Below, piece after piece: positions 21,120-38,258 of a stretch of DNA of 45,280 nucleotides. Made by a program: the position numbers and the translations under genes. Position 1 is the first letter of the stretch. Each line of letters starts with the position of its first letter. The stretch spans positions 1 through 45,280 of the forward strand of contig SIBR01000031.1 of the NCBI GenBank assembly GCA_009695065.1, given 5' to 3'. Below the pieces are notes generated by a model. That model was not told where the DNA came from and searched no databases. It saw only the letters and a list, made by a program, of their open reading frames with translations. The stretch comes from Opitutus sp. (GTDB taxonomy: Bacteria; Verrucomicrobiota; Verrucomicrobiae; Opitutales; Opitutaceae).

Positions 21120-21231
21120 GGGGAGAGGAAAAGCGGAAAACTGGGGGAAGCGGAAAATTGGGAGACGACGGGATGTTTAAGACAAGCGGGACTTCGTTTT
21201 CCGATTTTTCGCTTTCTCGCTTTTCCGCCTT
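21120..21231. repeat. Imperfect inverted repeat between E1-beta and E2
   Basis: The left side has the purine-rich motif GGAAAAGCGGAAAACTG (repeated as GGAAGCGGAAAATTG). The right side has the matching pyrimidine-rich CGTTTTCCGATTTTTCGCTT and CTCGCTTTTCCGCC. Together they form a long imperfect palindrome that fills the 112-base gap. No gene is visible. Confidence 0.55.
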
Positions 21232-22209
21232 TCAGGCCAGCGCTTCGAGCGCGGCTTTGAGGACACGCTCCGGGTTGGGCAGTTGCTCGGTTTCGAGCGG
21301 CGGGCTGTAGATCGCCGGCGCATCGATGGTCGCAAGCCGATGGATGGGGCCATCGAGTTCGTCGAAGGCCTCGCGCTGGATCATGTAGGCCAGTTGCGAG
21401 CCGACCGAGGCGAAGGGTTTTTGCTCTTCGACGATCAAGACGCGATGGGTCTTCGCGACTGAGGCGAGCACCGTGTCGATGTCGAGCGGGCGAATGGACC
21501 GGAGGTCCACGACCTCCACCGACACACGGTGCTTCTTTTGCAACACCTCGGCGGCGGCGAGCGAGTGGAGCACGCAGCGGCCGTAGGTCACGATCGTCAG
21601 GTCAGTGCCGGTGCGCTTCACGTCGGCCAAGCCGAGCGGGACGAGATACTCGCCGTCGGGTACTTCGCCCTTCTCACCGTAGAGAATGGTGTTCTCGATG
21701 AAAAATACCGGATCGTTGTCGCGAATGGCGGACTTGAGCAGGCCTTTCGCATCATAGGCGGTCGACGGTACGACGACCTTCACGCCAGGGTGATTCGCCA
21801 GCACGTTCTCCGGAGTGTGCGAGTGAGTCGCGCCCACATTGGTTCCGCCATTGGCGGGACCACGGATGACGATGGGACAGTTGATCTGGCCGCCACTCAT
21901 GTAGCGGACGTTGGCGGCGTTGTTGAGAATCTGGTCGAAGGCGACGGAGTAGAACGACCAGAACATCAGTTCCATCACCGGGCGCACGCCGAGCATCGAA
22001 GCACCAATCCCCATGCCGATGAAACCGGCCTCGCTGATCGGCGTGTCGACGACGCGCTGCGGACCGAACTTGGCGAGCAAGCCCTCGGTGACCTTGTAGG
22101 CGCCGTTGAACTGGGCGACTTCCTCGCCCAAGACGACAACATTGCGGTCACGCTCCAACTCCTCAGCGAGGGCATGGCGAATGGCTTCGCGGTAAGTGAT
22201 AGCGGGCAT
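21232..22209 (-). CDS. pdhB: Pyruvate dehydrogenase E1 beta subunit
   Basis: The protein has 325 residues from ATG 22209 (MPAITYREAIRHALAEELER). The pattern is that of the transketolase-like pyrimidine-binding domain (VVLGEEVAQFNGAYKVTEGL, TPISEAGFIGMGIGASM, MELMFWSFYSVAFDQILNNA). The C-terminal domain follows (VEVVDLRSIRPLDIDTVLAS, VLIVEEQKPFASVGSQLAYM). It forms the E1 heterotetramer with the alpha subunit. The frame is open 32 codons further upstream, but that part is low-quality repeat sequence. The gene lies downstream of E1-alpha with a 241-base gap carrying a REP pair, and upstream of E2 with a 112-base repeat-filled gap. Confidence 0.94.
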   Translation of the reverse strand: MPAITYREAIRHALAEELERDRNVVVLGEEVAQFNGAYKVTEGLLAKFGPQRVVDTPISEAGFIGMGIGASMLGVRPVMELMFWSFYSVAFDQILNNAANVRYMSGGQINCPIVIRGPANGGTNVGATHSHTPENVLANHPGVKVVVPSTAYDAKGLLKSAIRDNDPVFFIENTILYGEKGEVPDGEYLVPLGLADVKRTGTDLTIVTYGRCVLHSLAAAEVLQKKHRVSVEVVDLRSIRPLDIDTVLASVAKTHRVLIVEEQKPFASVGSQLAYMIQREAFDELDGPIHRLATIDAPAIYSPPLETEQLPNPERVLKAALEALA

Positions 22210-22264
22210 CTTAGATTTGAGAGCTGAGCTCTGAGAGTTGGAGACAAAACCGCTGACTAATTCA

Positions 22265-22298
22265 GAAGCCAGGAAGTCATGAACCAAATCCTGGCTTC
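22265..22298. repeat. 10-bp inverted repeat
   Basis: GAAGCCAGGA (22265-22274) is perfectly inverted at 22289-22298 around a 14-base loop. It lies in the E1-alpha/E1-beta gap beside REP copy C. Confidence 0.5.
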
Positions 22299-22322
22299 CA
22301 CTCAAGAAACAGCCGCTGGTTT

Positions 22323-22383
22323 GTAGTCCCGCCTTTAGGCGGAAGGCTTGAATTGGTCGGATTCCGCCTAAAGGCGGAACTAC
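22323..22383. repeat. GTAG-headed REP pair, copy C
   Basis: Two 26-base arms (22319-22344 and 22362-22387) match at 25 of 26 bases as an inverted repeat. Each arm is GTAG followed by its own hairpin TTCCGCCTTTAGGCGGAA. It lies in the gap between the E1-alpha and E1-beta genes, so it may form a strong structure within the operon mRNA. Confidence 0.85.
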
Positions 22384-22450
22384 AAACTGATCTATTTCTT
22401 CCCGTCACGGGCAAAAATCGGTTTTGCTGCTGGGGCTGCATAGATACGGC

Positions 22451-23560
22451 TCAGTTGAAAAAGAGGCGGCCTTTGGACGTGCGCGCCGCGGGGCTGTCGG
22501 CCTCCCAATAGACGTCCTTCTGGATGTCGGCCGTGGTTGGGTAGGGGCTCGCTTCGGCAAACTCGGCGGCGTTTTCGGCTTCGGCGCGGGCCTCGGCATC
22601 GATTTTATCGATCGTCGCCTCGTCGAGCACACCCTCGGCGATGAGTTGGCTTTGGAAAACCTGGATGGGATCCTTGGTCTTCCGGTATTCCTCGATCTCG
22701 GACTTGCTGCGGTAGGTGTTGTCGGGGTCGGCGACGGAATGTCCGCGGTAGCGGTAGGTGTCGATTTCGACGGTGGACGGCCGGGATTGTTCTCGAGCCA
22801 GCGTCAGGAACTTGTCCATGCAGGCGCGGACTTCGTAGACGTCGTGGCCGTTGCACTGCCCCCACGGCATGTCGTAGCCTTCGGCGCGCTTGGCGAGTTC
22901 GCCCGCCGAGGAGCGCGCCTGGCTGGTGCCCATCGAGTAGCCGTTATTCTCGATGACGAAAACCACGGGTAGATTCCAAAGGGCCGCCAGATTGTAGGCC
23001 TCGTGCACGGCGCCTTGGTTGACCGCGCCATCGCCCATGAACGCCATCGCCGTGCCCTTCCGGCCCTGGTATTTGACGCCGTAGGCCAGGCCGACGCCGA
23101 GCGGGATCTGTCCGCCGACGATGCCGTGACCGCCCCAGAAATTGCGCGACGGATCAAAATAGTGCATCGAGCCGCCCTTGCCTTTCGAGCACCCCGTCGC
23201 CTTGCCGTAGAGTTCGGCCATCAACGGATTCAGTTCCATGCCGACGGCGATGGCATGACCGTGGTCGCGATAGGCCGTGATGACGTGGTCGTTTGGCCCC
23301 ATCAAGGAGCAACACCCCACCGCCACGGCTTCCTGGCCGATGTAAAGATGGAGGAATCCGCCGATCTTTTTCGCCTGATAGGCGCGCAGGCTCCTTTCCT
23401 CGAAACGCCGGATGCGCACCATTTTGCGATGGAGCTCGATTTTGCCAGCGGGAGTCAGCGCCGCATTGCTCGGCGCGTCCTTGGCTGCCGGGATCGATGC
23501 GGTCGCCACGGGGGTGTCGTCGGCCTTCTGGTCAGCGCTGGTAGTCGGTTTCTTCGTCAC
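22451..23560 (-). CDS. pdhA: Pyruvate dehydrogenase E1 alpha subunit
   Basis: The 369-residue protein has the thiamine-diphosphate motif GDGAVNQGAVHEAYNLA (176-192) ending with ENN (204-206), and the substrate/phosphorylation-loop region YRYRGHSVADPDNTYRS. GGFLHLYIGQEAVAVG and YRDHGHAI are also conserved in E1-alpha. The protein decarboxylates pyruvate and passes the acetyl unit to lipoyl-E2. The first 35 or so residues are an Ala/Thr/Lys-rich extension. The start is a GTG at 23560. It is the first gene of the pdhA-pdhB-pdhC run. Confidence 0.94.
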   Translation of the reverse strand: MTKKPTTSADQKADDTPVATASIPAAKDAPSNAALTPAGKIELHRKMVRIRRFEERSLRAYQAKKIGGFLHLYIGQEAVAVGCCSLMGPNDHVITAYRDHGHAIAVGMELNPLMAELYGKATGCSKGKGGSMHYFDPSRNFWGGHGIVGGQIPLGVGLAYGVKYQGRKGTAMAFMGDGAVNQGAVHEAYNLAALWNLPVVFVIENNGYSMGTSQARSSAGELAKRAEGYDMPWGQCNGHDVYEVRACMDKFLTLAREQSRPSTVEIDTYRYRGHSVADPDNTYRSKSEIEEYRKTKDPIQVFQSQLIAEGVLDEATIDKIDAEARAEAENAAEFAEASPYPTTADIQKDVYWEADSPAARTSKGRLFFN

Positions 23561-23656
23561 GGAACGTGGTTCGGTTGATGCAAACGGGATAGTCTTTGCC
23601 GGACCCCGGGGAAATCAAGTGTGATTCGTGTCTGCGCCAAACCGCCGAGGCGTTTT

Positions 23657-23690
23657 AAACCACTAATTCCCACTAATGATTCACTGGTTT
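23657..23690. repeat. ACTAAT-type dispersed repeat upstream of pdhA
   Basis: AAACCACTAATTCCCACTAA and the rest to 23690 are bounded by AAACCA and TGGTTT as inverted ends. A related ACTAAT...ATTAGTG sequence occurs at about 44788-44875. It lies in the 189-base region that must contain the pdh promoter. Confidence 0.5.
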
Positions 23691-23749
23691 CAGTAGTCCG
23701 CGGGCGGTGACTGCCTCAGGTTTAGTGCCTCACTCGTGGGATGCCTGGT

Positions 23750-24265
23750 TCAAGCGTTCTTGCCCGGTGTGATTTGCTCGATTTCTACTTGGATCGGCTT
23801 GCCCGGGGCGCAGTCGGCCTTCAGCGCGACAAATCGATCGCGATAGCGATCATAGATTGGCCAAAGCGCATTCTTATCCGTCTCGGGGATCGGCAGGGTG
23901 TTGATGGCTTCCCGCGAAAAGAAGCCGAACCGGCCCTCCGCGATGTCTGGTGGCAGGGCGGGAATCGGCCGCCGGCAGCGGAACAGGAACATCAGCCAAT
24001 GCGAGTGCCCTTCGTAGGCCTTCTCGGCAATCATCGCGAACAGGTGGAAATCAGCCGCCGGCACCTGAAATCCGGTCTCCTCCTGGGTTTCCCGCACCGC
24101 GCACTCGAAGGGCGACTCGCCAGCGCCGGTTTCAAGTTTACCCCCGACCGGGCTCCAGACGCCCAGATTGGGCGATTTCGCCCGCAAAAGCAGGAGCAAT
24201 TCACCCGCGGGATTCTCGAGAAACACCAGGACGGCAATTTTGTAGGAAAGGGAGGGCGTTGACAT
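23750..24265 (-). CDS. NUDIX hydrolase
   Basis: The protein has 171 residues from ATG 24265. The Nudix box (G-x5-E-x7-RE-x2-EE-x-G) covers residues about 41-65: GGKLETGAGE, then the conserved arginine-glutamate helix in AVRETQEETGF. These residues bind the metal and hydrolyse a nucleoside diphosphate-linked substrate. The substrate cannot be read from sequence. The longer open frame upstream reads through GC-rich repeat-like sequence and lacks family features. The gene stands alone between the pdh promoter region and the divergent pilus locus. Confidence 0.88.
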   Translation of the reverse strand: MSTPSLSYKIAVLVFLENPAGELLLLLRAKSPNLGVWSPVGGKLETGAGESPFECAVRETQEETGFQVPAADFHLFAMIAEKAYEGHSHWLMFLFRCRRPIPALPPDIAEGRFGFFSREAINTLPIPETDKNALWPIYDRYRDRFVALKADCAPGKPIQVEIEQITPGKNA

Positions 24266-24404: not shown

Positions 24405-25022
24405 ATGTACCGTGTCCTAATCACCCTCCTTCTCGCGCTGGCCGACCTGGCGAGTGTCCAGGCGCAGGACGTTGAGGTGACGGCGGTAAAGTTTGCCAAT
24501 CTCCGCTCTCCCCCCGGGGCCAACGGCAACTGGCTCGAGGCGGATATCGCGCTCAATGTCCGCCCGGGTCCGGGGGCAGCCGGGCAAATGGTTTCGCGGG
24601 TGCGGGTGACCGTGCTGCTCGGTTTCGAATTGGCGGCGCTGGCGGGCGGTGAACGCCGAATCGAGCACTTCCGGGCGGAGGCCGAGTGCGTGGTGCTGGA
24701 GGCCGGGCGCGCTAACTTGCGATTTTATCTCCCGCCGGAGCTCGTCAAACGCGACCAGTTGCACGGCGACCCGAAATATTGGGGGGTCGAACTGGCGGTC
24801 GCGGGCCGTCCCGTTCCCGCTGCGCGCGGTTCCTACGCCGGGACCCTGGCGAATTCGGAGCAGCGCAAGAGTTTCCAGACGAAGGGCACCCCCGCCGCCA
24901 CCGCCAATGAAGGGTTGCTGCAGCCGCAGTACCTCACGCCGTTTGCCACCGAATATCCCCGGGCTACCCCGTCCTTCGTGCGCCGGGATGAGCGGGCTGG
25001 ACCAGCCGCGAGCAATCGGTAA
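24405..25022 (+). CDS. Amuc_1102-like pilus-locus exported protein
   Basis: The 205-residue protein begins with a signal peptide (MYRVLITLLLALADLASVQA, cleavage before QDVEV). A single beta-rich domain follows (VEVTAVKFANLRSPPGANGN, WLEADIALNVRP, VRVTVLLGFEL, ARANLRFYLPPELVKRDQL). The Akkermansia protein Amuc_1102 is a small exported immunoglobulin-like-fold protein coded at the same place, next to the PilM-like gene. Identification here is by position, size and export signal, with some recalled similarity, not by alignment. The C-terminal 50 residues are Pro/Ala-rich. It is probably periplasmic or outer-membrane associated and part of the pilus-type machine. The gene is the first of the run; PilM follows after 61 bases. 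Confidence 0.7.
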   Translation: MYRVLITLLLALADLASVQAQDVEVTAVKFANLRSPPGANGNWLEADIALNVRPGPGAAGQMVSRVRVTVLLGFELAALAGGERRIEHFRAEAECVVLEAGRANLRFYLPPELVKRDQLHGDPKYWGVELAVAGRPVPAARGSYAGTLANSEQRKSFQTKGTPAATANEGLLQPQYLTPFATEYPRATPSFVRRDERAGPAASNR

Positions 25023-25083
25023 CGGTTAATCCTATTGCGACGTCTCGCTCCATCTGAATCGCCTCTCCTGCGTCATTATTTCC

Positions 25084-26814
25084 ATGCGATCCACCCGTCT
25101 CCTAGCAGTTGATATCGGGGCCGGCCACATTGCGTGCGGTTTGTTCAGCGTCGGACCAACCGGCCGGCTGGTTTTGCAGCAGTTTGGGCTGGAGCCGCTC
25201 AGCTCGGATCCGTCCCACGAGTCGCGCTGGGCGGTGGAAATTGCCCAGGCTCTCGGGGCGGTCGCGACGCGGCATAAATTGTCTGGCCGCTGCGCCATCG
25301 CGGTCCCGGGCCAACTGGCGCTGACGAAGTTCATCAAGACTTCGTCGGTCGCGAAGGAGAAGCGCGGCAAGATTATCGCGTTCGAGGCGGCCGAAAACAT
25401 CCCGTACCCGCTCAAGGAGGTCGTCTGGGACCACCTGGTCGTCTCCGACGACGGCTTCGATATCGAGGTGATGCTCACGGCCGTAAAATTCGAGGCGATG
25501 CAGTCGCTCTGTGCCGCCGCCGATGCCGCCGGTTTTCCGGTCGAGCGCGCGATTCCCGCGGGCCTCGCGCTGTGCCATGCGTTCCGTCACAATTACCCGG
25601 CGGTGCATGACAGCGTGATCGTCGTGAACATTGGCGCGCGCACGACCAACCTGCTTTTCTTAGAGTCCGATCGGTTCTATCTCCGGACGCTCGCCCTCGC
25701 CGGCAACGCGGTCACCCAGGCCATCGCCGAGGAGCTGCGCATCGATTTTTCCCAGGCCGAAACGTTGAAGGTTCAGGTCTTGTCGGGGCATTCCGATCTG
25801 CCCGCCAATTCACCCTCCCGCGCGGCCGTGCAGCGGGCCGCGACGGCTTTCGAGGCGCGCATCCAGCTCGAAATCACGCGTTCCGCCTTGAACCATCGGC
25901 GACAGGCCGGGGCGGGGGCGCCGGTGGCGGTCTACCTGACCGGCGGCGGCTCGTTGCTGCCGGATTTGCCCCAGGTCCTGACGGAAAAACTGAAATTGCG
26001 GGTCGAGCGCTGCGAGTCGCTGCGCAACGTGGACCTTTCCGCCGAGGCTCGCATGGGTGGCGCCGAGGCGTCCGCGCCGGTGCTCGCCGACCTCGTGGGT
26101 CTCGCGACCCAACTCGTGGTCAAGAACCAATCCGAGGCCAGCCTCCTGCCTCCGGCGATCACCGAGGCCATCGCGTTGCGCAAGCGGCAGCCCTTTTTTG
26201 TCGCGGCGGCCGCGCTCGCCGTCCTGGCCCTGCTGCCGCCCATTGTGTATTTTCACCGGGTGGTGACGGAAACGCTCTCGCACGTCGTCGAGGTCGACAG
26301 CCAACTCATGCCGCTGCGGGCGATCCAGACGCGCAAAGAGAACAATCTGCGGCAAATCGAGGAATCGAAGAAGCAAATCGCCGCGCTGCGCGGCGCGTAC
26401 GAGACCAAGTCGAATTGGATCAATTTCTTCACCGAGTTGCAGACGCGCCTCGTGGAGGTGGAAAATGTCTGGCTGGAGAAAATCCAGGTGGTCCGCGCGC
26501 CCGTCGGCGAAGGCGCGCCAGAGGCGGCCGCCCCGGTGGCCGAAACTCCGGCCGGGGACGCGGCGCCGGCGGCCGGTGACGTGGCGCCCGTGCGTCCGCC
26601 CTTTCGCCTGACCCTGAGCGGCCGGTTGCTCGATGTCGACAATCCCCAGTCCAAGGTGAGTCCACAGTCGTTCGAGCGGGTGAAACAGCTGCTGCAGAAA
26701 TTCAAACAGTCGCAGTTTGTCGCCGTCGTCGAAAACGAGCGGTTCGACAACACGCAGAACGGTCTCTTGCGTTTCGACTTCACCCTCGTGATCAACCCCA
26801 GGAAATCGCTGTGA
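25084..26814 (+). CDS. PilM-like actin-fold protein fused to PilN-like membrane part
   Basis: The protein has 576 residues. The N-terminal 355 form a PilM/FtsA-type actin-like ATPase: phosphate-1 motif VDIGAGHIACG (9-19), phosphate-2 VNIGARTTNLLFL (181-193) and adenosine motif YLTGGGSLLPDLPQVL (284-299). A membrane helix (about 371-390) follows, then a coiled coil (SKKQIAALRGAYETKSNW), a Pro/Ala linker and a C-terminal beta-alpha domain (FRLTLSGRLLDVDN...FDFTLVINP). The last part matches the periplasmic fold of PilN. Canonical PilM (about 350 residues, cytoplasmic) and PilN are separate proteins, so this looks like a fusion, as I recall for Amuc_1101. It would link the cytoplasmic ring to the periplasmic alignment complex. 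Confidence 0.85.
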   Translation: MRSTRLLAVDIGAGHIACGLFSVGPTGRLVLQQFGLEPLSSDPSHESRWAVEIAQALGAVATRHKLSGRCAIAVPGQLALTKFIKTSSVAKEKRGKIIAFEAAENIPYPLKEVVWDHLVVSDDGFDIEVMLTAVKFEAMQSLCAAADAAGFPVERAIPAGLALCHAFRHNYPAVHDSVIVVNIGARTTNLLFLESDRFYLRTLALAGNAVTQAIAEELRIDFSQAETLKVQVLSGHSDLPANSPSRAAVQRAATAFEARIQLEITRSALNHRRQAGAGAPVAVYLTGGGSLLPDLPQVLTEKLKLRVERCESLRNVDLSAEARMGGAEASAPVLADLVGLATQLVVKNQSEASLLPPAITEAIALRKRQPFFVAAAALAVLALLPPIVYFHRVVTETLSHVVEVDSQLMPLRAIQTRKENNLRQIEESKKQIAALRGAYETKSNWINFFTELQTRLVEVENVWLEKIQVVRAPVGEGAPEAAAPVAETPAGDAAPAAGDVAPVRPPFRLTLSGRLLDVDNPQSKVSPQSFERVKQLLQKFKQSQFVAVVENERFDNTQNGLLRFDFTLVINPRKSL

Positions 26815-26858
26815 ACCACGCCGATCTCCAGTTTTTCAGTTGGCTGACCGGGGCCCGG

Positions 26859-27240
26859 GGTGGGCCGGGCGCTCCGCGCGCGGCCAGGCCGGTCGGGACT
26901 TCGTTTTCCTCCTGCCCAAGCCGGAACAATGCAGCCCCCACCGCAAAACGGGTTTTGCTCCGGACGGGAAGAAACGACGGTTTTTGCATCCCTGCTCGGG
27001 AGAGCAGGGATGGCCTTCGATCCATGGCTGAGTCCCGCTTCTCCCGAAGCGGGCTACAACAGCGCTGTTTCCTAGGAGTCGAAGAATTTTTCCCTCGTGA
27101 CGACGAACACAAACGGTGGACGGCGATCGCCGGCCGCCGTTTCAAAAGGGACGCTCGAAAAACGCGCCCGGAGGTCACGTTCCACCCCAAGCCAACTGCA
27201 TCGTTACGACCAAGGCCGCGCGCGGAGCGCCCGGCCCACC
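26859..27240. repeat. Element bounded by perfect 27-base inverted repeats
   Basis: The left arm starts GGTGGGCCGGGCGCTCCGCG and runs 26859-26885. Its exact reverse complement is at 27214-27240. Each arm is itself a hairpin (GGCCGcGCG/GCGCcCGGCC type). A diverged pair of the same arms lies at 42882-42964. It is either two inverted REP copies or a short non-autonomous (MITE-like) element of 382 bases. Confidence 0.8.
26990..27057. repeat. REP-type hairpin pair, copy G
   Basis: A perfect 8-bp hairpin with a GGGA loop (26990-27009) is followed by a minus-strand GTAG hairpin (27034-27057) with a perfect CCCGCTTC/GAAGCGGG stem and the same GGGA loop. The left arm has a degenerate head in place of GTAG. 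Confidence 0.7.
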
Positions 27241-27274
27241 TCGGTCATTCGTTATTTTTTTCGGATCGCGCCTA

Positions 27275-28345
27275 ATGAAATGGTACCGCCAAAACCCGTT
27301 GTTCGCTTCCGCGCTGACGCTCAGCGCGCTGATTGCGCTCGGCGAAATTTGGTGCATCTACGACCGCTTCGCCGCTTCGCGCGCCGCCGCCGTGCGCCTC
27401 GCGCAGCGCACGACTGAACTGCAGGGCATGGCCGAACTCCAGCCGCCGCCGACGCGCGCGGTGGCCACGACGATCGAGGCGGATCTGGCCCGGGCCCGGC
27501 GTGCGGTCGCCGCCATGCAGGGTGAATTGCAGGGCCGGGGCGCCGCGGCCGAGCGGATCCGTTCGGCCAAGGTGCCCACGGCGCGGACCGATGCGTATTT
27601 TGATCTCGCGACTTTCGTCGAAAAAACGCGCGAGCTGGCCCGCAAGCATGAGGTCGAGATTCGCCCCGACGTGGCGCACTTCGGTTTTGCCGCCTATGCG
27701 AACGAAGGCCCGGACGCGGAGCGGATCGAGCCGGTCTTCCGGCAGCGCCTCGTGGCCCAATATCTCGTCGAATCCCTGTTCGAGGCGCGGCCCCGCGCGC
27801 TGCTCCTCCTCAAGCGCGAGCCGGCCATCACCAGAAAGGAACGGGAAGAACGGGAAGCAGCCCGGGCCAGCGCTCCGGCCGATTCGCCGGTCGAAGCCAC
27901 GCCGCTGGAGGATGGACCGGACTATTTCGCCATCGATCCGCGTGTGAGTGTTCGCGCCCCGGGTTACATCGACACGACGGCTTTCCGGATCACGTTCAGC
28001 GGCCAGACCGTTTCGCTGCGGGCGTTTCTCAACCGGCTGGCGACGTTCGAGCTTCCCGTCTTGGTGCGCGAAGTCGAGGTCGAGCCGGCCACCGCCGATG
28101 AAGCGGCCGCGACGGCGGAGGATAATGGGCCGGTCGCACCTTCGAGCACTGCCGCGTCGGTGGTTCTCGGTGTCCAGCCCGCTGCCCCCAAGCCCACCGC
28201 GAAAAAAGTCGCGCCCAAGGCGTCCGCCGCCGCCCCGATCGTAGCCAAGCCCTATTCGAAGTTCACCGTCACCGTCGAGTACCTCGATCTGGTGACTCCG
28301 CCGGCCGCTTCCGCCGACGGAGAAACCCCGCCGACCAAGGCCTGA
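27275..28345 (+). CDS. Amuc_1100-like (PilO-like) pilus protein
   Basis: The 356-residue protein has an N-terminal membrane helix (about 9-29, after MKWYRQNP), a coiled coil rich in Arg/Ala/Glu, then two beta-alpha domains. The second block, AFRITFSGQTVSLRAFLNRL followed by ATFELPVLVREVEVEP, an Ala/Pro-rich linker and KPYSKFTVTVEYLDLV, mirrors in order the 'EIAFQGDRESVLKAMNAI...VNSIRIRNE...KPYMGKEQVFVQVSLNLV' part of Akkermansia Amuc_1100 as I recall it. Amuc_1100 is the abundant envelope protein reported to signal through TLR2, and its fold resembles PilO/PilN. Here the likely role is the inner-membrane alignment complex. A repeat-filled 460-base gap precedes the gene. Start ATG 27275 places the helix at the N-terminus. 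Confidence 0.82.
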   Translation: MKWYRQNPLFASALTLSALIALGEIWCIYDRFAASRAAAVRLAQRTTELQGMAELQPPPTRAVATTIEADLARARRAVAAMQGELQGRGAAAERIRSAKVPTARTDAYFDLATFVEKTRELARKHEVEIRPDVAHFGFAAYANEGPDAERIEPVFRQRLVAQYLVESLFEARPRALLLLKREPAITRKEREEREAARASAPADSPVEATPLEDGPDYFAIDPRVSVRAPGYIDTTAFRITFSGQTVSLRAFLNRLATFELPVLVREVEVEPATADEAAATAEDNGPVAPSSTAASVVLGVQPAAPKPTAKKVAPKASAAAPIVAKPYSKFTVTVEYLDLVTPPAASADGETPPTKA

Positions 28346-28364
28346 GCCTGGGCGCCCCCTGACC

Positions 28365-29267
28365 ATGGCCGGAAATCTCAACGACAAAGCCCTCATCGGC
28401 GCCGCCCTGGCGCTGGTCCTGGTTTCGGCCGCGGCTTTCGCCACGCTCACCGCCCGCAAGGTCGGCATGCCTCGCGGCTCGGTGGCCACGGTGCAGTTGC
28501 AGGACGGGCCCTACACGCCCGCCATTGCGGAAGCATCACCGGTGAAGACCGACACCTGGACGCCGCCCGGCGCCCAGTCCCGCGGCCGCGAATGGATCTA
28601 CGATACCTTCACGCCCCCGGAAATTTTCTACAGTGCGCGCACGAAGCAGTTCACGGTGCGTCCGCCGCAGGGCCTGACCGAGGATGAGGTCGAGGAAGTT
28701 TTCGGCCTCGAACTGCAATCCGTAAAGCCCGAGCCGTTCCGCCTGCAGCTAATCGGCTACGTCGGCGGTGACGGCAACTGGCGCGGCACCTTCGAAAACG
28801 TCCTTACCGGCGAGGTGTTTCTCGCGTCGGCCGGCCGCCGCGTTGGCAGTCTCGCGCTCTCCATCATTAGCCTCGACGTGCAGCCTCAACCGGTCGTGCT
28901 CGACCACAGCATGACCACGAACCAGCGCGTCGCCACGGCGATCGTGCGCGACGAGCGCAACGGGCGCAACGTGACGCTCACCCACCGCCAGCGGCACTAC
29001 ACGGGCACCGGGTTCGCCTTCCTGACCCTGACCGGACAGTCCTCGATGCGGGAAGTGCGGGCCGGCGACGCGTTCAAGCTGGGCGAGATCACCTACCGGA
29101 TCGACCGCGTGCAAATCGCGCCGCCGGCGGTCGAAATCACCAAAGAAACCCCGGGCCTGCCCCAGCCGGAACGCCGCACGCTGCTGCCGCGCGACGTCGA
29201 GGACGCGCCTCCGTCCGCCTCTTTCCTTTCCAAATTATCTACTGCCGCTTTCGTCACTCTTCCGTAA
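28365..29267 (+). CDS. Amuc_1099-like pilus protein
   Basis: The 300-residue protein has an N-terminal membrane anchor (ALIGAALALVLVSAAAFATL, about 9-28). A periplasmic part contains REWIYDTFTPPEIFYSARTK, FRLQLIGYVGGDGNWRGTFE, VATAIVRDERNGRNVTLTHR and a second beta-rich repeat ending in EITYRIDRVQIAPPAVEITK. The two small beta modules recall PilP-type proteins, which link the inner-membrane complex to the secretin. The position between the PilO-like gene and the secretin gene, as in Amuc_1100-1099-1098, supports the call. The stop overlaps the next start (TAATG at 29265-29269), so translation is probably coupled. Confidence 0.78.
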   Translation: MAGNLNDKALIGAALALVLVSAAAFATLTARKVGMPRGSVATVQLQDGPYTPAIAEASPVKTDTWTPPGAQSRGREWIYDTFTPPEIFYSARTKQFTVRPPQGLTEDEVEEVFGLELQSVKPEPFRLQLIGYVGGDGNWRGTFENVLTGEVFLASAGRRVGSLALSIISLDVQPQPVVLDHSMTTNQRVATAIVRDERNGRNVTLTHRQRHYTGTGFAFLTLTGQSSMREVRAGDAFKLGEITYRIDRVQIAPPAVEITKETPGLPQPERRTLLPRDVEDAPPSASFLSKLSTAAFVTLP

Positions 29268-32017
29268 TGAATACTCGCCCCCTTTTCCCGCCGCTCCTGG
29301 CCGCGCTCGCCGCCGTTCTACTGGCGGTAAGTGTGCCGCGCCCGGATGCCTTCGCGCAAAGTCCGGCGGATGCGAAAGTCCGGCTCCTGTCGGATGCCGT
29401 GCGCGCGCGGGCCGCCGGCGATCTCGCTGCGGCGCGTGCCTTGCTCGACCAGGTCGAGGCCCTGTCCCCCAACGATCCGGCCGTCCGCCGCCTGCGGGCG
29501 GAAATCGACGCCCAGAACGGCACCCCGGCTTCGGCCGCCGCGACCACTCCCGCTGCTTCCACGCCGGCGCCGCGGGCCGAGCCCGCCGGTCCGACGCCCG
29601 AACAGCAGGCCGAAGCGCTCGCCAACGCCGAGGCCGCGCGGGTGACCGGGCTCATTAACAACGCGCAGAACCAGCTCACCGCCGCGCGCACCCAGCTGCG
29701 CGGCGGCCGGTCCGACGACGCCCTCGTCGTGCTCGATGCGGCCATCGGACAATTGCCCGTCAATCCGCGGACGCAGTCGCTCCTCGCCGACCTGAACAAG
29801 GAAAAGGCCAACGCCCTCCTCGATCGCGCGCAGGCGGCGGTCGGCCGCGGCGACATCGAAGGCGCCCGGGCCGCACTGGCGGCTTCGGACAAGATCTCGC
29901 CGATGAACGGCCGGGCGATCGGCATCGAAAGCCAGATCGCGCGGATCGAAACCCGCGCCGCCGGCGGTCGGAGCGGCAGCGCGGCCTTCATCGCGGAGCG
30001 CGCCTCCATCGCCCAGCTCGCGGCCAAGGGCCGCGCCCAATACCTGGTGGGCGATATCGACGGCGCGCAGGGCACCTTTCGTGCTCTTGAGGCCCAGGAT
30101 CCGGACAACACCGTGGCCAAGGGATTTCTCCTGCGCATCGCCGAGGAAAAAACCGAGACCGGGGCGCTCAATCGCGAGAAGACCCGCGCGCAACTGCTCG
30201 AGGAGGTCGCGAAGGGTTGGCAGCGGCCCGGCATTTATCAGGAGCGCGCCCGCGACGCCGACCAGGCCGCCGCCGTCGCGCCGCTCGCGAAGAAGCTGAA
30301 CGAAATCACGCTGCCGAGCGTGAGCTTCACCCGCACCGAGATCGGCCAGGTCGTGGCCGCGCTGAGCGCCATCTCCGAGGAATTCGACGCGTCGGGTGCC
30401 GCAGTCAAGGGCGTCAACATCGTGCTGCTCGATCCGAGCAACAAGAACCCGACCGTCACGATCACGCTGCGCAACGCGACCTTGAAGCGCGTGCTGGATT
30501 TTGTGACCGAGGGCATCGGCTATCAATACGAAGTGCAGGCCGACGCCGTCGTGGTTCGCCCCGGCGGGGAAACGAGCAACCTCGAGACGCAGTTTTTCCC
30601 CGTCACGCGCGCCACGGTGCTGCGGATGACTGGCATCACCGGCGGGACCGGGAGTGGGGGCGGCGCGACCGCCGCGGGTGGCGCCAGCAAGGATCCTTAT
30701 TCGGCCGGCGGGGCGGGTGCCGCCGAGACTTCGGGGTCGGGCGGCGAAGCCGGCTCGATGCGCGGTTTCCTCCAGCAGGCGGGCGTGAGTTTCACGGTCG
30801 AGGGGAGCTCGCTCGCCTACGATGGCTCGGCGATCATCGTGACCCAGACGGCCCGCAACATTGAGCGCATCCGGAACATTCTCGGTCGCTACAACGACGT
30901 GCGCCAGGTGGAGATCGAGGCGAAGTTCCTGGAAGTGCAGGAGGGCGCCCTTGAGGAACTCGGCGTGACGTGGAATGCGACCCGCCGCGGCGTACCGCAA
31001 ATCAACCCGGCGACCGGCGCGCCGATCCTCGACGCCAATGGCCGACAGACATTTGTGCCTCAAGAAACTTATACGACTGCTGGCAACACACGGAGCCTGG
31101 TGGGCGGCTTTCCGAGCACGACCAACAGCGCGGCGATCAATATCAGCGATACCACGGGGGCGCGGATCACCACCCCGGTCGCCCCGGCGACAATTCCCGG
31201 CGGAGTCTCCCTGGCGTCCACGGCGGGCGCGTTGGGCACTATCACCGGGTTCGTCGGCGAGTTCGATGTGTCGGCGGTCGTGCGCGCGTTGTCGCAAAAG
31301 CAGGGAACGGATTTATTGAGCTCACCCAAGATCACGGTGCTCTCCGGCAATCCGGCCAACATCACGGTGGCGCAGGAGCTGCGTTATCCGCAGAGCTACG
31401 GCGAAATCCAAAGCCAGGTCGGCTCGGGCACCGGCACGGGCACGGGCCTCAGCGCCGCTGGCGTCACGATCACCGCTGGCACGCCGCAGGAATTCGCCAC
31501 CCGCAATGTCGGAGTGGAGCTGAAGGTCACGCCCACCGTCGAGGAGGACGATTATTCGATCAGCCTCGACCTCAATCCGCGCGTCACCGAATTCGAGGGC
31601 TTCGTGGAATACGGCGGGCCGAGCATCGCGATTTCGTCGGGCGTGACGGTCACGGTGCCGCCCGGCTTCTATCAACCGATCTTTTCCGTCCGCGACATCT
31701 CGACCAAGGTGACGATTTGGGACGGCGCGACGCTCGTGATGGGTGGGTTGACGCGTGAGGAGGTCAAGAAGGTGAACGACAAGGTGCCGTTCTTCGGGGA
31801 TCTCCCGATCATCGGCCGGCTGTTCCGGTCCAAGGGCGAAAGTTCCCAGAAGCGGAACCTGTTGATCTTTGTGACCGCGAATCTCGTGAGCCCCGGTGGC
31901 TCGCCGAAGAAGCAAAACCTGAAGAACACCCCGGCCAGTTCCCTGTTCCAAAACCCGACCATCGTCACCCCGACCAGCGCCGAACCCCGGACGCGCACCG
32001 GCAGTGGCAGCAAATGA
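29267..32017 (+). CDS. Secretin, PilQ/Amuc_1098-like outer membrane channel
   Basis: The 916-residue protein has a signal peptide (residues about 1-31, ending DAFAQ). About 270 residues of TPR-like helical repeats follow (ARALLDQVEALSPNDPAVRR, ALAASDKISPMNGRAIGIES). N0/STN-like and N1-like modules come next (ITLPSVSFTRTEIGQVVAAL; FTVEGSSLAYDGSAIIVTQT), then the secretin core (QVEIEAKFLEVQEGALEELG, TDLLSSPKITVLSGNPANIT, NVGVELKVTPTVEEDDYSIS) and the hallmark end VPFFGDLPIIGRLFRSKG. It forms the gated multimeric channel in the outer membrane. The N-terminal TPR part is not typical of proteobacterial PilQ but fits the verrucomicrobial type. A Ser/Thr/Pro-rich tail ends the protein. Confidence 0.92.
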   Translation: MNTRPLFPPLLAALAAVLLAVSVPRPDAFAQSPADAKVRLLSDAVRARAAGDLAAARALLDQVEALSPNDPAVRRLRAEIDAQNGTPASAAATTPAASTPAPRAEPAGPTPEQQAEALANAEAARVTGLINNAQNQLTAARTQLRGGRSDDALVVLDAAIGQLPVNPRTQSLLADLNKEKANALLDRAQAAVGRGDIEGARAALAASDKISPMNGRAIGIESQIARIETRAAGGRSGSAAFIAERASIAQLAAKGRAQYLVGDIDGAQGTFRALEAQDPDNTVAKGFLLRIAEEKTETGALNREKTRAQLLEEVAKGWQRPGIYQERARDADQAAAVAPLAKKLNEITLPSVSFTRTEIGQVVAALSAISEEFDASGAAVKGVNIVLLDPSNKNPTVTITLRNATLKRVLDFVTEGIGYQYEVQADAVVVRPGGETSNLETQFFPVTRATVLRMTGITGGTGSGGGATAAGGASKDPYSAGGAGAAETSGSGGEAGSMRGFLQQAGVSFTVEGSSLAYDGSAIIVTQTARNIERIRNILGRYNDVRQVEIEAKFLEVQEGALEELGVTWNATRRGVPQINPATGAPILDANGRQTFVPQETYTTAGNTRSLVGGFPSTTNSAAINISDTTGARITTPVAPATIPGGVSLASTAGALGTITGFVGEFDVSAVVRALSQKQGTDLLSSPKITVLSGNPANITVAQELRYPQSYGEIQSQVGSGTGTGTGLSAAGVTITAGTPQEFATRNVGVELKVTPTVEEDDYSISLDLNPRVTEFEGFVEYGGPSIAISSGVTVTVPPGFYQPIFSVRDISTKVTIWDGATLVMGGLTREEVKKVNDKVPFFGDLPIIGRLFRSKGESSQKRNLLIFVTANLVSPGGSPKKQNLKNTPASSLFQNPTIVTPTSAEPRTRTGSGSK

Positions 32018-32042: not shown

Positions 32043-35000
32043 ATGGTCATGAAATCATTATTTAGGATTCTACTTTTCGCCGGATTGCTGGCGACTCGCC
32101 TGTTGGCGGTTAATCCGACCGTTAGTGTAACCGCGCCTTTAACGGGCGCGAACGTCCCGGTGGGATCATCCCTGTATTTGAGAGCAACCGCGGCCGATTC
32201 GGACGGTTTCGTCGCCTACGCTGAATTTCGCGTCAATACAGTGCTCGTCAAAACCGTAAACACGGCGCCCTATAATTTCGTTTACACGTTTGCTACGGCG
32301 GGTGTCGTGACGATTGATGCGCGAGCCTACGACAACACCGCCGCGACCACGGATGCCACGCAGATAAGTGTGAACGTAGTTCCGGCGATTGGAGTTGGTC
32401 CGGTCGTCACCATCGCCAGTCCTTCGACGACGGACACGGTCGTGGCAAATCAAAGAGTTTTGATAACAGCATCAGCAACCGACGGTGACGGATTCATTCC
32501 GGGCACGAGCGGTGTCACATTCCTCCTGGATGGAGACCCGTTGCCTGTGCTTACGTCGGGAAGTCAGTTGTCCAGCTCGGAAGCCAATCCAGACCTTACG
32601 CCGCCGTACCTTCTGACATGGAATCCTGGTGTAGCAAAGTCCTACGATCTGCGCGCACAGGCTACAGACGATAAAGGGAACATACGGCTGTCACCACAGC
32701 TCGTCATCAATGTAGTTTCTCCACTGCCTACGGTGGCAATTATCACCCCGAGTACTGGGTCATCGGTGACATTGGGATCTGCTGTTACGGTTCTTGCGAA
32801 TGCCTCCGGTGCGAGTGGACAGACCACTTCGATTACCAAGGTTGATTTTTATGAGGACGGTATCTTGTTCCAGACCGATACGACATCACCCTATAGCGTG
32901 ACCTGGACGCCAGCATTTGCTCGTGGGACACCGTACCTGCTTTCCGCGCGAGTCACTGACTCAAACGGTTCAACGGCCGCGTCGACTCCCATTCAGGTTT
33001 CAGTGCTGGCAAATACTCTGCCCACCGTCACGATCGCCAGGCCGGCCGCCAGTGGGTCGACAATACCGACCAACACTGCATTCAGTTTGGTGGCCGCGGC
33101 TAGCGATGCTGACATCGGTGGCTCAATTGCGAGCATAGTTTTTTATGCGAATGGCACGATAATCGGTACGGCCACGCCTGAAACGGAGTCGACTGGTAAC
33201 TACCGACTTTCTTGGACGCCTGCGAGTGCCGGGACCTTCTCGATCACAGCCGTCGCCACCGACAACGCGAATGGCTCAACCACCTCGGCGGCGCGAACAG
33301 TCACGGTGAGCGCAACGGGTGGGATTCCGCCGACGGTTTCTCTGGCCATGACGGGTGGTGGTATATCCATTCCCATCGGCTCGAGTCGTATCTTGACGGC
33401 CACAGCCACCGACGATGGAGCCGTTGCCCGGGTGGAATTCTATTACGATAGCGAATTAATTGGAACGGCCGCCACGGCGCCATACTCCCTTGTCGTCAAG
33501 GCTCCGGCATCAGCTGGACAGCATACCATTTTCGCCCGGGCCTACGACAATGCGGGGTTGGTTACCAACTCCACGCCTATTGCGATAAACATTGCCGGTG
33601 CCCTTGGATTGCCGCCTAGCATCGGAATTACCGCGCCTGCTGCCGGAGCTTTTATTCCGATCAGCACAGTGAGCACCCCGATCACAATCAGCGGTTCGAC
33701 CGCAGATGCTGACGGTTCCGTAAGCAGCGTGCAGGTCTTTGCGAACGGAAGTTCGATTGGCACCGTGGCTTCGCCCGGAGCCAATTGGTCGCTGAACTGG
33801 GTGCCAGCCACGGTTGGGGTGACAACTCTTGTTGCGATAGCGACCGACGATAAGGCCAATGCGATCGCCTCGCCGCCGCTTACCGTCAACGTCACCGAAA
33901 ACACGACGCCGACCATATCGCTGACGCTTTCACCTGGTGGTTCAACGATGCCAATCAACTCCATCCGCAATGTCGTCGCGAATGCGGCGGTGTCGGTTGC
34001 CGGTCGAGCCATCGTGCGCGTGGAGTTTTTCGTAAACGGCGGGAAAGTGGGTGAAGATACATCTGCGCCCTACACGTTCAGATTTGCGTCCGGCGCGGTA
34101 CCGGGAAATTACCTGCTTTCCGCGCGAGCGACTGATAATGCTGGAGCAGCGCGTGATGCACAAATTCCACTGACAGTGATCGCGCAGGTGGGCGCGCGAC
34201 CCACGGCGATACTCATCACGCCGGCCACCAATAGCACGGCCGTGCCGAATGCCAGCCTTAGCCTGGCGGCGACGGCAACGGCGCCCGGCGGGACGATTAG
34301 TTCGGTGCAATTTTACGTCAACGGCAGTCCGACCGGAATAACCACTGGTAATCCGTCAGTGCCGCCTTATATCGCGACCTACATGCCCACCCAGCCTGGG
34401 ACGTATGTTTTTGATGTGATCGCGACGGATGATCGTGGCAACACGGCGGTATCGAATGGTGCCCTGGTGCTTGTCAATTTTGGCGTGCCGGCTGTTACCA
34501 TTACGACGCCGCGGGTAGACAGCAGTAACTCCGTGCGCGTAACGCCCAATGTCCCGTTGCCGATTACAGCGACGGCGACGGGCGGTACCGGGGCATTGGT
34601 CCTGTTGGTTGAATTTCTTGTCGACGGCACACAGATCGGAACGCGAACCGTAGCGGCGCCGAATACCTCAAATTATTCTTTTCCTTGGACCCCAACCGCG
34701 ACGGACCTCGGGCTACATGTCTTGACGGTTCGAGTAACTGATACGAATTCCGTTAGCGCGACGTCGTCGCCTTTGAATCTCAATGTCGCGACCGTCGTCG
34801 GAACTCCACCAACGGTCACCATTACTTCGCCCGGGAATCAGTCGATTCTCCAAAGCCTTTCCACGGTTAACCTGATTGCCACGTCCTTCGCCACTGGTGG
34901 CACCGTGTCCAGTGTCGAGTTTTTCGTCAACGATGCGAGTGTCGGGCTCGCGGCGCGCGAGCAAACCACCAACGTTTACCGGCTCCCCTATGATTTCTCG

Positions 35001-38000
35001 ACTATCAACTACGCTTCGTTGACCGCCGATACCAATGGAAGATACCCGATAACAATTTATGCCATCGCGAAAGACAGCAATGGCAACCAGACCGCATCGC
35101 TTACGTTCACGGTGTTTGCAAGCCCATCGCAGAGTCTGCCGCCCAGCGTGCAACTCGTGACGCTCGGCAATCCGGCGGTCACTGCGGGCACACCGTTCGC
35201 CGTGGGCGCCACCGTGCAGGATTCCGACGGCACCGTGGCCAGCGTCCAACTCTTCGCCAACGGCACCCAGGTCGCCCAGCAAACTTTCCCGCAGTTCGGT
35301 ACGATTCTCATCCACACGCCGCAAAACGCCGGCCGTTTCAATCTCTATGCGGTTGCAACCGATGACACCGGCAATTCGAGTGTTTCGGCGCCTATCGTCC
35401 TGAACGTCACCGGCAACACGTCGCCCACGAGCGTGTTGGTGCGACCGGCGGACGATTCCACGGCGACCACCGTCAATACCCCGGTTTTCCTCGAGGCCAC
35501 GGCCAGCGATCCGGACGTGGGCCAGAATGTCAGCGTCTCCTTCATCAACACCGCCAACGGTGCCACCCTCGCGACCGGTACCCGCCTGGGCACGACCACG
35601 ACCTACCGGGCTATCTGGACGCCGAACACCGCCGCGACGTTTATCGTGGCGGCCCGGGCCGCCGATACCGCCGGGGCCACGACGACCAGTTCCGTCTCCC
35701 GCAGCGTGGTCGTGACCAACATTGTTGGCATCGCGCCGGTAGTGAGTATCAACGTCCCGGGCAGCGCGACGACGGCCTCGATGGCCAATTTTATCGCGAC
35801 CGCCACCGATTCCGACGGCTCGGTCATCGACGTGGAGTTTTTCCTCAATCGCAACAGCATCGGCCACGCGGTGCGCGATCAGTTGGCAACCAGTTGGCGG
35901 CTGACCGCCTCGTTTGTCGGCATCACGCCCGGCAACGTGGAAATCGTGGCCCTCGCGCGCGACACCGCCGGCAATGTGGCCGCGTCCTCGACGAACAATA
36001 TCAACGTCACCGCCGCCTCGAGCATCGCCCCGTCGGTCAGCATCGTGGTGACCTCCGGCGACGCGTCGTCGGGCGGCGCAACGCCGCCCGTTATTTCGCC
36101 CCCCATCGCAATCACCCCGCTGCCGGTCGAGATTTCACCGCGGGCCGATGCCACCACGCTGCCAACCATCACGGTCCCGTTCAGCCGCCAGGCCCAGCTC
36201 ACCGCCAGCGCGCGGGACTACGACGGCACGGTGACCTCCGTGCAATATTTTGCCAACGGCACCAATCTTGGCACTAGTAGCAATCCGGCCACGAACTTCC
36301 TGGTGAACTGGACGCCCAATCAGTCTGGCACGTTCAATGTCTATGCCATTGCCACGGACAACACGGGGATCGCGACGGTTTCTTCCACGGTGCTCGTGAC
36401 CGTCCGCCGCAACGATCCGGTACTCGAGGACGCCGCGTTCGTCCTGCAGTCCTACCAGGACATCGCCAACACGCAGACGATCAACCCGCTGGTGTTCGCG
36501 GATCTCGTGGCGAAGATCGGCTCGGGCGCGATGAGCCGCGCGGATCTCGTGGCCACGCTGACCGATGAGCCGGGCTTCGTTCCGCCCGTCGTTTTTCTAG
36601 CCACTTATTATGTGGTCATGGGCCAGTGGCCGACGCCGGCGAACTACACCTCGCTGCTCCCGACGGCGCGGGGCAGCCTCCCGAACGCGATCGGTTCCAT
36701 CCTCTCGTCCACGGAGTATTTTGCGAAGTACGGCATCGTGCCCACGGTCGCGCTGCTCGAAAATCCGGCGAGTCTCATCCCCGAGGCCACCTTCCTCAAC
36801 CAGCTTTGGCAAAACGCCGGCCTGGGCCCGCCTCAGGCCCTCGACCACCTGCGCTTCCGGAGCAACAATGTCGCGAGCGCCACCCTGGGTCTGGCTCGAG
36901 GGTACAACGTCGTCGGTCTCAACACCGCGATCGCCGAGCTCATCACGAACACCCTGCCACTGAATGACGCGGCGCTGTTCAAACGGACCCGGGCCGCGGC
37001 GATCTTCTATCAGCTCGATCGGCCGTCGACGGCCGTGACCACCGATCAGATCGCCGCGCGGGTCGCGGTGATGGCCCAGCTCGCCGACGACAAGTCGATG
37101 GCGGAAGCCGCCCTGAAGGATATTTTCTACAACTATCGTTATGTGACCATCACGAAGCACCCGGAGTCGCTCCTGGTGTCGCCGCGGTCGGGCGCCATCT
37201 TCCGGGTCGAGGCGGCGGGCGCTCCGCCCCTCGCGTACCAGTGGCTCCTGAACGGTGCGCCGGTGCGCGTGGCCAACAGCGCGACGCTGAGCCTCACCAA
37301 CGTCGATGCGTCGCGGGTCGGGACCTATACGGTCGTGGTGACATCTGCGGTGGCATCTTCGACTAGTGATCCGGCTACCTTGACCCTCGCCACGACCGCC
37401 ACCCGGCTCGGCAACATCTCGACGCGGGGCATAACCGCGACCGGCAACAGCGTCCTGACCGCCGGCTTCGTCGTGAGCGGTACCCCCAACCAGACCCGGC
37501 AAATGTTGATCCGCGTCGTCGGCCCGTCGCTGGCCGCGCAGGGTGTCACCGGGGTGCTCGACGATCCCCGCCTCGAGCTCTATAGCGGCTCGAATCAGGT
37601 GCCGATTCAGATCAATGACAATTGGGGGACGCAGACGGGTGGGGCCACGGCCGTCACCGCCCTCCAGCAGGCAATGACGCGGGCGAGCGCGTTCCCGCTG
37701 TCCGGGACCAACTCGCGCGATGCCGCCATTCTCCCCACGCTTCAGCCCGGCCTTTATTCGGTGCAGGCCAAGGGTCCGGCGGTGAATGCCTCGGGCGCCG
37801 TCATCATCGAGGTTTACGACGTCACGGCCGGCGGCGTGGCGGGTCCGAAGGCGGCGAACGTCTCGACGCGCGGCCAGATCGGCACGGGGAATAGTATCAT
37901 GACCGCGGGTTTTGTGGTGACCGGGACAGCTTCGCGCCGGCTGCTGATTCGCGGCGTGGGCCCGACCCTGCAGCGGTTCAATCTTCCGGTGGCGACGTTG

Positions 38001-38258
38001 CTCGCCGATCCGCAGATCGCCCTTTTCAATCAGTCGACCGGCAAGGCGATTCAATCGAACGACAACTGGGCCTCGAGTGACGACGCGGGTATTATCGCCG
38101 AGGCCGCGGTGAGCGGCGGCGCGTTTCCGCTGGCGAACGGGAGCCTGGATGCGGCGATGGTCGTGATGCTCTCACCGGGCAGCTATTCGGTCCAAATGAG
38201 TGGCGTCCGCAACACGACCGGCATCGGCATCGTGGAAGTCTACGACGTCGATCCGTGA
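32043..38258 (+). CDS. Giant Ig-repeat surface protein (about 2070 residues)
   Basis: A signal peptide (MKSLFRILLFAGLLATRLLA region) is followed by about 14 Ig-like repeats of 90-110 residues. Each has the pattern 'PTV.I..P....V..G..L...A.A.D.DG.V..V.F..NG...G......PY...W.P...G.......A.D..G' (residues about 20-1455). Then come a DUF4214-like helical region (about 1458-1700), one eukaryote-like Ig domain (PPLAYQWLLNGAPVR, about 1706-1785) and two copies of a module starting (N)(I/V)STRG and containing (V)LTAGFVV, LIR.VGP and DPRLELY (from about 1790 and 1939). ATG 32043 is chosen because GGAG at 32031-32034 is 8 bases upstream. The gene starts 25 bases after the secretin, so it is probably in the same operon. 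An adhesin or secreted client of the pilus machine is inferred. G+C rises sharply near 35.1 kb. Confidence 0.88.
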   Translation: MVMKSLFRILLFAGLLATRLLAVNPTVSVTAPLTGANVPVGSSLYLRATAADSDGFVAYAEFRVNTVLVKTVNTAPYNFVYTFATAGVVTIDARAYDNTAATTDATQISVNVVPAIGVGPVVTIASPSTTDTVVANQRVLITASATDGDGFIPGTSGVTFLLDGDPLPVLTSGSQLSSSEANPDLTPPYLLTWNPGVAKSYDLRAQATDDKGNIRLSPQLVINVVSPLPTVAIITPSTGSSVTLGSAVTVLANASGASGQTTSITKVDFYEDGILFQTDTTSPYSVTWTPAFARGTPYLLSARVTDSNGSTAASTPIQVSVLANTLPTVTIARPAASGSTIPTNTAFSLVAAASDADIGGSIASIVFYANGTIIGTATPETESTGNYRLSWTPASAGTFSITAVATDNANGSTTSAARTVTVSATGGIPPTVSLAMTGGGISIPIGSSRILTATATDDGAVARVEFYYDSELIGTAATAPYSLVVKAPASAGQHTIFARAYDNAGLVTNSTPIAINIAGALGLPPSIGITAPAAGAFIPISTVSTPITISGSTADADGSVSSVQVFANGSSIGTVASPGANWSLNWVPATVGVTTLVAIATDDKANAIASPPLTVNVTENTTPTISLTLSPGGSTMPINSIRNVVANAAVSVAGRAIVRVEFFVNGGKVGEDTSAPYTFRFASGAVPGNYLLSARATDNAGAARDAQIPLTVIAQVGARPTAILITPATNSTAVPNASLSLAATATAPGGTISSVQFYVNGSPTGITTGNPSVPPYIATYMPTQPGTYVFDVIATDDRGNTAVSNGALVLVNFGVPAVTITTPRVDSSNSVRVTPNVPLPITATATGGTGALVLLVEFLVDGTQIGTRTVAAPNTSNYSFPWTPTATDLGLHVLTVRVTDTNSVSATSSPLNLNVATVVGTPPTVTITSPGNQSILQSLSTVNLIATSFATGGTVSSVEFFVNDASVGLAAREQTTNVYRLPYDFSTINYASLTADTNGRYPITIYAIAKDSNGNQTASLTFTVFASPSQSLPPSVQLVTLGNPAVTAGTPFAVGATVQDSDGTVASVQLFANGTQVAQQTFPQFGTILIHTPQNAGRFNLYAVATDDTGNSSVSAPIVLNVTGNTSPTSVLVRPADDSTATTVNTPVFLEATASDPDVGQNVSVSFINTANGATLATGTRLGTTTTYRAIWTPNTAATFIVAARAADTAGATTTSSVSRSVVVTNIVGIAPVVSINVPGSATTASMANFIATATDSDGSVIDVEFFLNRNSIGHAVRDQLATSWRLTASFVGITPGNVEIVALARDTAGNVAASSTNNINVTAASSIAPSVSIVVTSGDASSGGATPPVISPPIAITPLPVEISPRADATTLPTITVPFSRQAQLTASARDYDGTVTSVQYFANGTNLGTSSNPATNFLVNWTPNQSGTFNVYAIATDNTGIATVSSTVLVTVRRNDPVLEDAAFVLQSYQDIANTQTINPLVFADLVAKIGSGAMSRADLVATLTDEPGFVPPVVFLATYYVVMGQWPTPANYTSLLPTARGSLPNAIGSILSSTEYFAKYGIVPTVALLENPASLIPEATFLNQLWQNAGLGPPQALDHLRFRSNNVASATLGLARGYNVVGLNTAIAELITNTLPLNDAALFKRTRAAAIFYQLDRPSTAVTTDQIAARVAVMAQLADDKSMAEAALKDIFYNYRYVTITKHPESLLVSPRSGAIFRVEAAGAPPLAYQWLLNGAPVRVANSATLSLTNVDASRVGTYTVVVTSAVASSTSDPATLTLATTATRLGNISTRGITATGNSVLTAGFVVSGTPNQTRQMLIRVVGPSLAAQGVTGVLDDPRLELYSGSNQVPIQINDNWGTQTGGATAVTALQQAMTRASAFPLSGTNSRDAAILPTLQPGLYSVQAKGPAVNASGAVIIEVYDVTAGGVAGPKAANVSTRGQIGTGNSIMTAGFVVTGTASRRLLIRGVGPTLQRFNLPVATLLADPQIALFNQSTGKAIQSNDNWASSDDAGIIAEAAVSGGAFPLANGSLDAAMVVMLSPGSYSVQMSGVRNTTGIGIVEVYDVDP

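Follow-up and report, generated by a model that had tools for sequence, protein, structure and literature searches.

The locus described here poses the question of how a set of genes resembling the scaffold of a pilus works when neither a motor nor a pilin is encoded alongside it. It lies on contig SIBR01000031.1 of Opitutus sp. (GenBank assembly GCA_009695065.1), of which positions 1 to 45,280, the entire stretch analyzed, are referred to as the window. Its five plus-strand genes follow the order 1102-1101-1100-1099-1098 of the MUL2 locus (Amuc_1098-1102) of Akkermansia muciniphila. We regard it as probable that they encode two parts of a type IV pilus, its alignment subcomplex and its outer-membrane channel, and that its motor and pilins are encoded elsewhere in the genome. 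The genes are as follows:

24405-25022, plus strand: Amuc_1102-like exported beta protein of 205 amino acids (aa), with the Amuc_1102 fold
25084-26814, plus strand: Amuc_1101-like protein of 576 aa, with a PilM domain and a membrane-anchored, PilN-like C-terminal part
27275-28345, plus strand: Amuc_1100-like protein of 356 aa (NF038287) in the PilO position, with a transmembrane (TM)-like stretch at its N-terminus
28365-29267, plus strand: Amuc_1099-like protein of 300 aa, with a PilP/GspC-like periplasmic domain after an N-terminal TM-like stretch
29267-32017, plus strand: Amuc_1098-like secretin of 916 aa (NF042912), with TPR repeats at its N-terminus

This gene order, and the presence of an Amuc_1098-1102-like set outside Akkermansia, had been proposed in a preliminary description of this DNA; the coordinates, NCBIfam matches, profiles and fold comparison agree with both. 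The last two genes share one base (TAATG). With curated NCBIfam cut-offs of 55 (Amuc_1102), 650 (Amuc_1101), 180 (Amuc_1100), 50 (Amuc_1099) and 750 bits (Amuc_1098), the proteins encoded from 24405, 25084, 27275 and 29267 score 15.9, 332.5 (NF045709), 73 (E 2.9e-20) and 430.2 bits, respectively, and the protein encoded from 28365 has no family match in NCBIfam or Pfam. Since every score is below its equivalog cut-off and the fourth gene has no match, the five genes are homologues, not equivalogs, of those of MUL2.

For the first protein, a sequence profile search of the PDB gave no relevant match, and its kinship to Amuc_1102 was revealed by structure comparison. The second protein matches PilM_2 of Pfam (PF11104, E 6e-23, above the cut-off) and PilM in the PDB (profile search, E 3.4e-47), and scores 91.9 bits with TIGR01175 (PilM), below the cut-off of 133. 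GspL in place of PilM is not indicated, as T2SSL reaches just E 0.07. The same protein has a single TM-like stretch at 372 and a weak match to PilN in the PDB (E 0.0045, profile positions 352-455); taken alone as PilN, its C-terminal part gave no structure match and one weak Pfam match in 14. As for the third protein, the preliminary description had staked its reading on a structural match to Amuc_1100 or PilO. Its family profile retrieves the solved Amuc_1100 (6kny, E 6.3e-10), and hhalign aligns the two with a probability of 95.5. Amuc_1100 itself presumably has a PilO-like fold. The fourth protein is tied to Amuc_1099 by profile and carries a GspC/PilP-type periplasmic domain. A PDB sequence profile search gave no relevant match for it, and Foldseek with its model alone returned nothing significant, with PilP-type entries ranked 6-7. 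DUF6406 is weakly matched in 14 of 43 relatives of this protein; a tandem pair of GspC-like halves within it was rejected as unsupported (hhalign probability 10%). Finally, the secretin matches Pfam Secretin (PF00263, E 6e-36), with TPR above and STN slightly below the cut-off. It scores 121.9 bits with TIGR02515 (PilQ), below the cut-off of 284. NCBIfam ranks it as Amuc_1098 (430 bits) ahead of GspD (142) and SctC (70), a ranking that does not indicate the grouping with type II or III systems by which the preliminary description would have been refuted.

The PilM-like and 1100-like genes are separated by an unusual gap of 460 bases (26815-27274) that by eye is rich in G+C and short inverted repeats; in most relatives the gap is nearly nil.

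The five genes resemble the PilM-N-O-P-Q set of the type IVa pilus (Myxococcus xanthus, 3jc8) in their PilM, PilP-like and secretin matches, in a weak PilN match and in the order M-N-O-P-Q. They differ from it in that PilM and PilN are fused, the PilP-like protein has a TM-like stretch, an additional 1102-like protein is present, and the motor is unlinked in the Opitutales relatives read. The PilM-PilN fusion, the protein in the PilO position, the PilP/GspC-like protein and the secretin would make up the alignment subcomplex and channel, with the exported beta protein as an additional part. PilM would link a cytoplasmic motor, supplied together with the pilins from other places in the genome, to a periplasmic N-O-P ring, which would dock on the secretin, and the filament would be extended and retracted through the latter.

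The preliminary description noted that PilB, PilT, PilC and pilins are lacking in the window, and proposed that the machine either borrows them from elsewhere in the genome or works differently. The lack was confirmed: PilB, PilT, PilC, coaE and rho of a relative have no match among the 370 open reading frames (ORFs) of at least 40 aa in the window, so that the Akkermansiaceae arrangement of coaE/rho beside the secretin is also not seen in this set, and a home-made pattern found no prepilin-like start among window ORFs of at least 60 aa. The second alternative found no support, as motor genes are found in all five relatives that were read and adjoin the scaffold genes in two genomes. The operon coaE-rho-pilB-pilT-pilB-pilC is complete in three of the five (L102, L103 and L105). 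DG1235 has its motor in two places, namely: coaE-rho-pilB1-pilT and pilB2-pilC (L104 and L106). In the closest relative (L101), a contig end cuts the operon, leaving pilB2, pilC and a 74-residue stretch that we read as the end of PilT, with a rho-like gene on the opposite strand. We infer the motor of the window organism from these genomes; it would drive the secretin at 29267, and a filament would be made.

We also surveyed 240 Verrucomicrobiota genomes and 14 control genomes with NCBIfam families. PilT is above its cut-off in 229 of the former and 5 of the latter, and in 185 of the 189 genomes with an Amuc_1100 match compared to 44 of the 51 without one (Fisher p 0.002); since kinship is uncorrected, this co-occurrence is weak. 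Two genomes (G144 and G181) have T2SSF and PilT and no match to Amuc_1098 or Amuc_1100. ATPases of the T2SSE family occur in all 36 locus-bearing genomes picked for the purpose from the 80 loci described below (2 to 17 each) and are not discriminating, as all 14 controls match too. PilB-family matches were found in 32/32 genomes tested, none above the TIGR02538 cut-off, prepilin peptidase in 16/16 and N-methyl prepilins in 9/9, the last two each being found in 8/14 controls as well.

In two genomes, G192 and G051, both halves lie in one block: pilB1-pilT-pilB2-pilC, then 1102-1101-1100-1099-1098, one gene, coaE and rho. Among the matches listed, these are the two genomes in which both halves lay close, and others may exist. 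In the G051 block, pilC and 1102 are separated by three genes of prepilin type and one larger gene; two of the three prepilin-like genes have no NCBIfam family, and the third (G051:C26:20151) has an N-methyl match above the cut-off. The Opitutales profiles labelled 1101, 1100 and 1098 only. NCBIfam gave Amuc_1102 in the two blocks (38.8 and 39.1 bits, cut-off 55), Amuc_1101, Amuc_1100 and Amuc_1098 in G192 (493.9, 55.1 and 438.1 bits, all below the cut-offs), and Amuc_1099 in G051 (39.0 bits, cut-off 50, in a fragment truncated where the locus ends); in G192, the 1099 place is occupied by an open frame. The G192 PilM exceeds its own cut-off (135.6 vs. 133), as does PilT of that block (461 bits, cut-off 319). 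Over 98% of its length, the secretin of G192 is identical to a secretin that carries the label Kiritimatiellae bacterium.

Between secretin and coaE, both blocks encode a protein of ~695 aa with a hydrophobic start (L154:2604-4688 and L157:3717-5813), alike by eye, the former with a weak Dpy19 match below the cut-off.

In A. muciniphila (G149), whose Amuc_1100 and Amuc_1102 match the solved chains throughout, rho lies beyond the 1098 secretin, two PilB-type genes and one PilC-type gene are found elsewhere, and a third site has two further ATPases whose length resembles that of PilT. A figure legend in the part of PMC13174399 available to us names dephospho-CoA kinase and rho at the MUL2 locus. 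Given the position of rho in A. muciniphila and in the Opitutales motor operons, coaE-rho has gone with different halves: Akkermansia has kept it next to the secretin genes and Opitutales next to the motor genes. Most simply, a single ancestral block would have been split in two ways. A. muciniphila also has a second secretin of the Amuc_1098 family (L146:9147-11672) with no labelled MUL2 partners nearby, and two such secretins recur in many top-scoring genomes among the matches listed.

A pilus is not the only machine to which such parts could belong. A type II-like secretion system, with GspE/GspF-type drive and the giant Ig protein described below among its cargo, is a possible though rather unlikely alternative. 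The locus shares with GspL-M-C-D a GspC-like domain and a secretin; the best match of the 1099-like protein is GspC, to which its G051 relative is faintly matched as well (E 0.014), the secretin has GspD as its best sequence match in the PDB, and the gene directly behind the secretin encodes a giant protein whose start is hydrophobic. Both PilB-type genes of G192 also score high as GspE: the first has 642.6 bits as PilB (cut-off 675.65) and 632.2 as GspE, above the cut-off of 630.25, and the second is best as GspE (613.4 vs. 598.5). These scores slightly lower our confidence in a pilus. PilC of that block scores alike with the PilC and GspF models (391, below both cut-offs). The scores alone do not decide between pilus and type II; most of the weight is carried by PilM and PilT. 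The actin-like part is PilM, above its cut-off in G192, and not GspL; PilT shares an operon with PilB and PilC; and the closest relative has another secretin adjoining its own ATPase (G001:C47), apparently a type II system distinct from this locus.

A fixed trans-envelope conduit for glycan or protein traffic, with no motor and no filament, we consider improbable. It would fit the window, which has no motor gene, the link that the part of PMC13174399 available to us makes, for Akkermansiaceae, between MUL2 and the attachment and uptake of glycans, and the four of 189 Amuc_1100 genomes that lack PilT above the cut-off (G152, G172, G238 and G241). However, those four retain T2SSF and T2SSE genes, the four genomes without any T2SSF among 11 tested (G044, G078, G187 and G093) show no Amuc_1100 match either, and one-block loci with a motor exist. 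The scaffold half of a type IV pilus remains our preferred reading: the homology of the parts, the kept order, the motor operons, peptidase and prepilins of relatives and the one-block loci of two genomes are all observed.

With respect to its spread, a genome-contig scan gave 430 secretin relatives among 492 stretches, from which 80 loci were kept for all the locus counts given here. The five genes occur in the same order and on one strand in 52 of the 80, more than expected by chance; the other 28 either are truncated by a contig end or have undetected genes, most often 1102. No 1102 was detected in nine loci in which the first match is preceded by more than 1 kb of DNA (L037, L049, L054, L055, L060, L066, L068, L074 and L075), where it may be absent or too divergent. 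The records are mostly labelled Opitutaceae, Opitutae or other Verrucomicrobia; two labelled ‘Akkermansia muciniphila’ and one labelled ‘Burkholderiales’ have secretins that group with the rest in the tree. Amuc_1100 matches were obtained in 189 of the 240 phylum genomes (22 above the cut-off) and in one control, Bacillus subtilis, below the cut-off, which supports the phylum-wide spread that had been supposed. The place in a trans-envelope scaffold that had been supposed for Amuc_1100 is likewise supported. Amuc_1098-family matches occur in 232/240 genomes (25 above the cut-off) and in 8/14 controls (none above), in a model that also picks up other secretins.

Two departures from the usual gene structure were seen. 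In L049 and L066, both among the loci with 1102 undetected, a separate short ORF with a secretin-profile match precedes the PilM-like gene; the secretin itself is shortened there, as though its N-terminal region had become detached. In L159:7722-9485 and L160:10897-12555 (G152 and G241, in which PilT is not above the cut-off), 1100-like and 1099-like parts are fused in one frame.

Downstream of the secretin, where rho lies beyond 1098 in Akkermansia, the window instead has the following genes:

32043-38258, plus strand: giant immunoglobulin (Ig)-repeat protein of 2071 aa with a hydrophobic start (Big_7, 13 stretches)
38286-39362, plus strand: 5'-3' exonuclease gene (PF02739, E 6e-42)

The secretin stop and the ATG of the giant gene are 25 bases apart, which places the ATG at +26 relative to the end of the secretin. 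Its product has a C-terminal domain in two copies that are 45% identical, and this domain is found in 23 ORFs of the 80 loci, 22 of them directly behind the secretin. A supported clade of the secretin tree that includes the window has 39 rows, and in all 34 that could be assessed a giant match lies between -34 and +28 relative to the end of the secretin; several of these are pieces cut by contig ends, and in the remaining five rows the sequence stops too early for the gene to be seen. A single insertion in this clade is therefore the simplest account. It should be noted that the label ‘giant’ needs 6 changes on the tree because the five cut rows were labelled ‘other’, and that a single insertion is the plain reading only without those rows. 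Outside the clade, large matching proteins occur at +52 to +161 in four loci (L039, L044, L046 and L073), and L058 has a weak match of 249 residues. The exonuclease gene, which likely marks the insertion point, comes next after the secretin in many loci that lack the giant: of the 80 loci, 21 have its motif at most 0.8 kb downstream of the secretin, 19 of them at most 0.21 kb.

Whether the giant protein belongs to the machine is an evenly balanced matter, the chance being about equal that its gene is an unrelated neighbour merely sharing the transcript. Many loci of other clades do without it and none of its domains indicates pilus assembly; against this stands its retention in all the assessable clade members. 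Our guess is that the system has it as a cargo or an adhesin. More specifically, it is conceivable, if doubtful, that in this Opitutaceae clade the pilus locus took in the giant as its own cargo for the cell surface. As an adhesin at the tip of the filament or bound to the channel, it would be delivered through the Amuc_1098-like secretin and give the machine its target. In some other Opitutales clades, the slot behind the secretin holds large proteins with PD40 (beta-propeller) or Ig repeats, as if this were where the tool of the machine is swapped.

On the other side of the locus, the minus strand of the window (19761-24250) carries pyruvate dehydrogenase-type E1, transketolase-type, E2 and NUDIX genes, of which E1 and/or NUDIX were seen again by eye in L149-L151.

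The locus is of a known kind, since Amuc_1100-type loci are already in the literature and one Opitutaceae relative is named an Amuc_1100 family pilus-like protein in its source record. As far as the portions available to us go, PMC5332112 locates Amuc_1100 on the cell exterior, PMC5332112 and PMC10688800 treat it as a host-active protein and describe it as a surface pilus component, PMC10688800 calls the cluster type IV pili, and PMC13174399 names the locus MUL2, with MUL2A and MUL2B in 266/352 Akkermansiaceae genomes, a subset of the family. Neither the motor link nor the Kiritimatiellae block is stated in the titles and abstract openings of the part of the literature matches that was searched. 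The motor link of the locus and its giant neighbour are what the present analysis adds.

Taken together, the locus is ordinary in kind and useful in detail. In the one-block loci, the Amuc_1100 relative holds the place of PilO, between the PilM-type protein and the 1099-like protein with the secretin, and the motor, in one case with prepilin genes, lies in the same block. On the basis of this arrangement, we argue that Amuc_1100 belongs to the periplasmic portion of a type IV pilus machine. Its location and motor thereby become testable, with the coaE-rho-linked pilB, pilT and pilC as named partners and the giant protein behind the secretin as a possible cargo.

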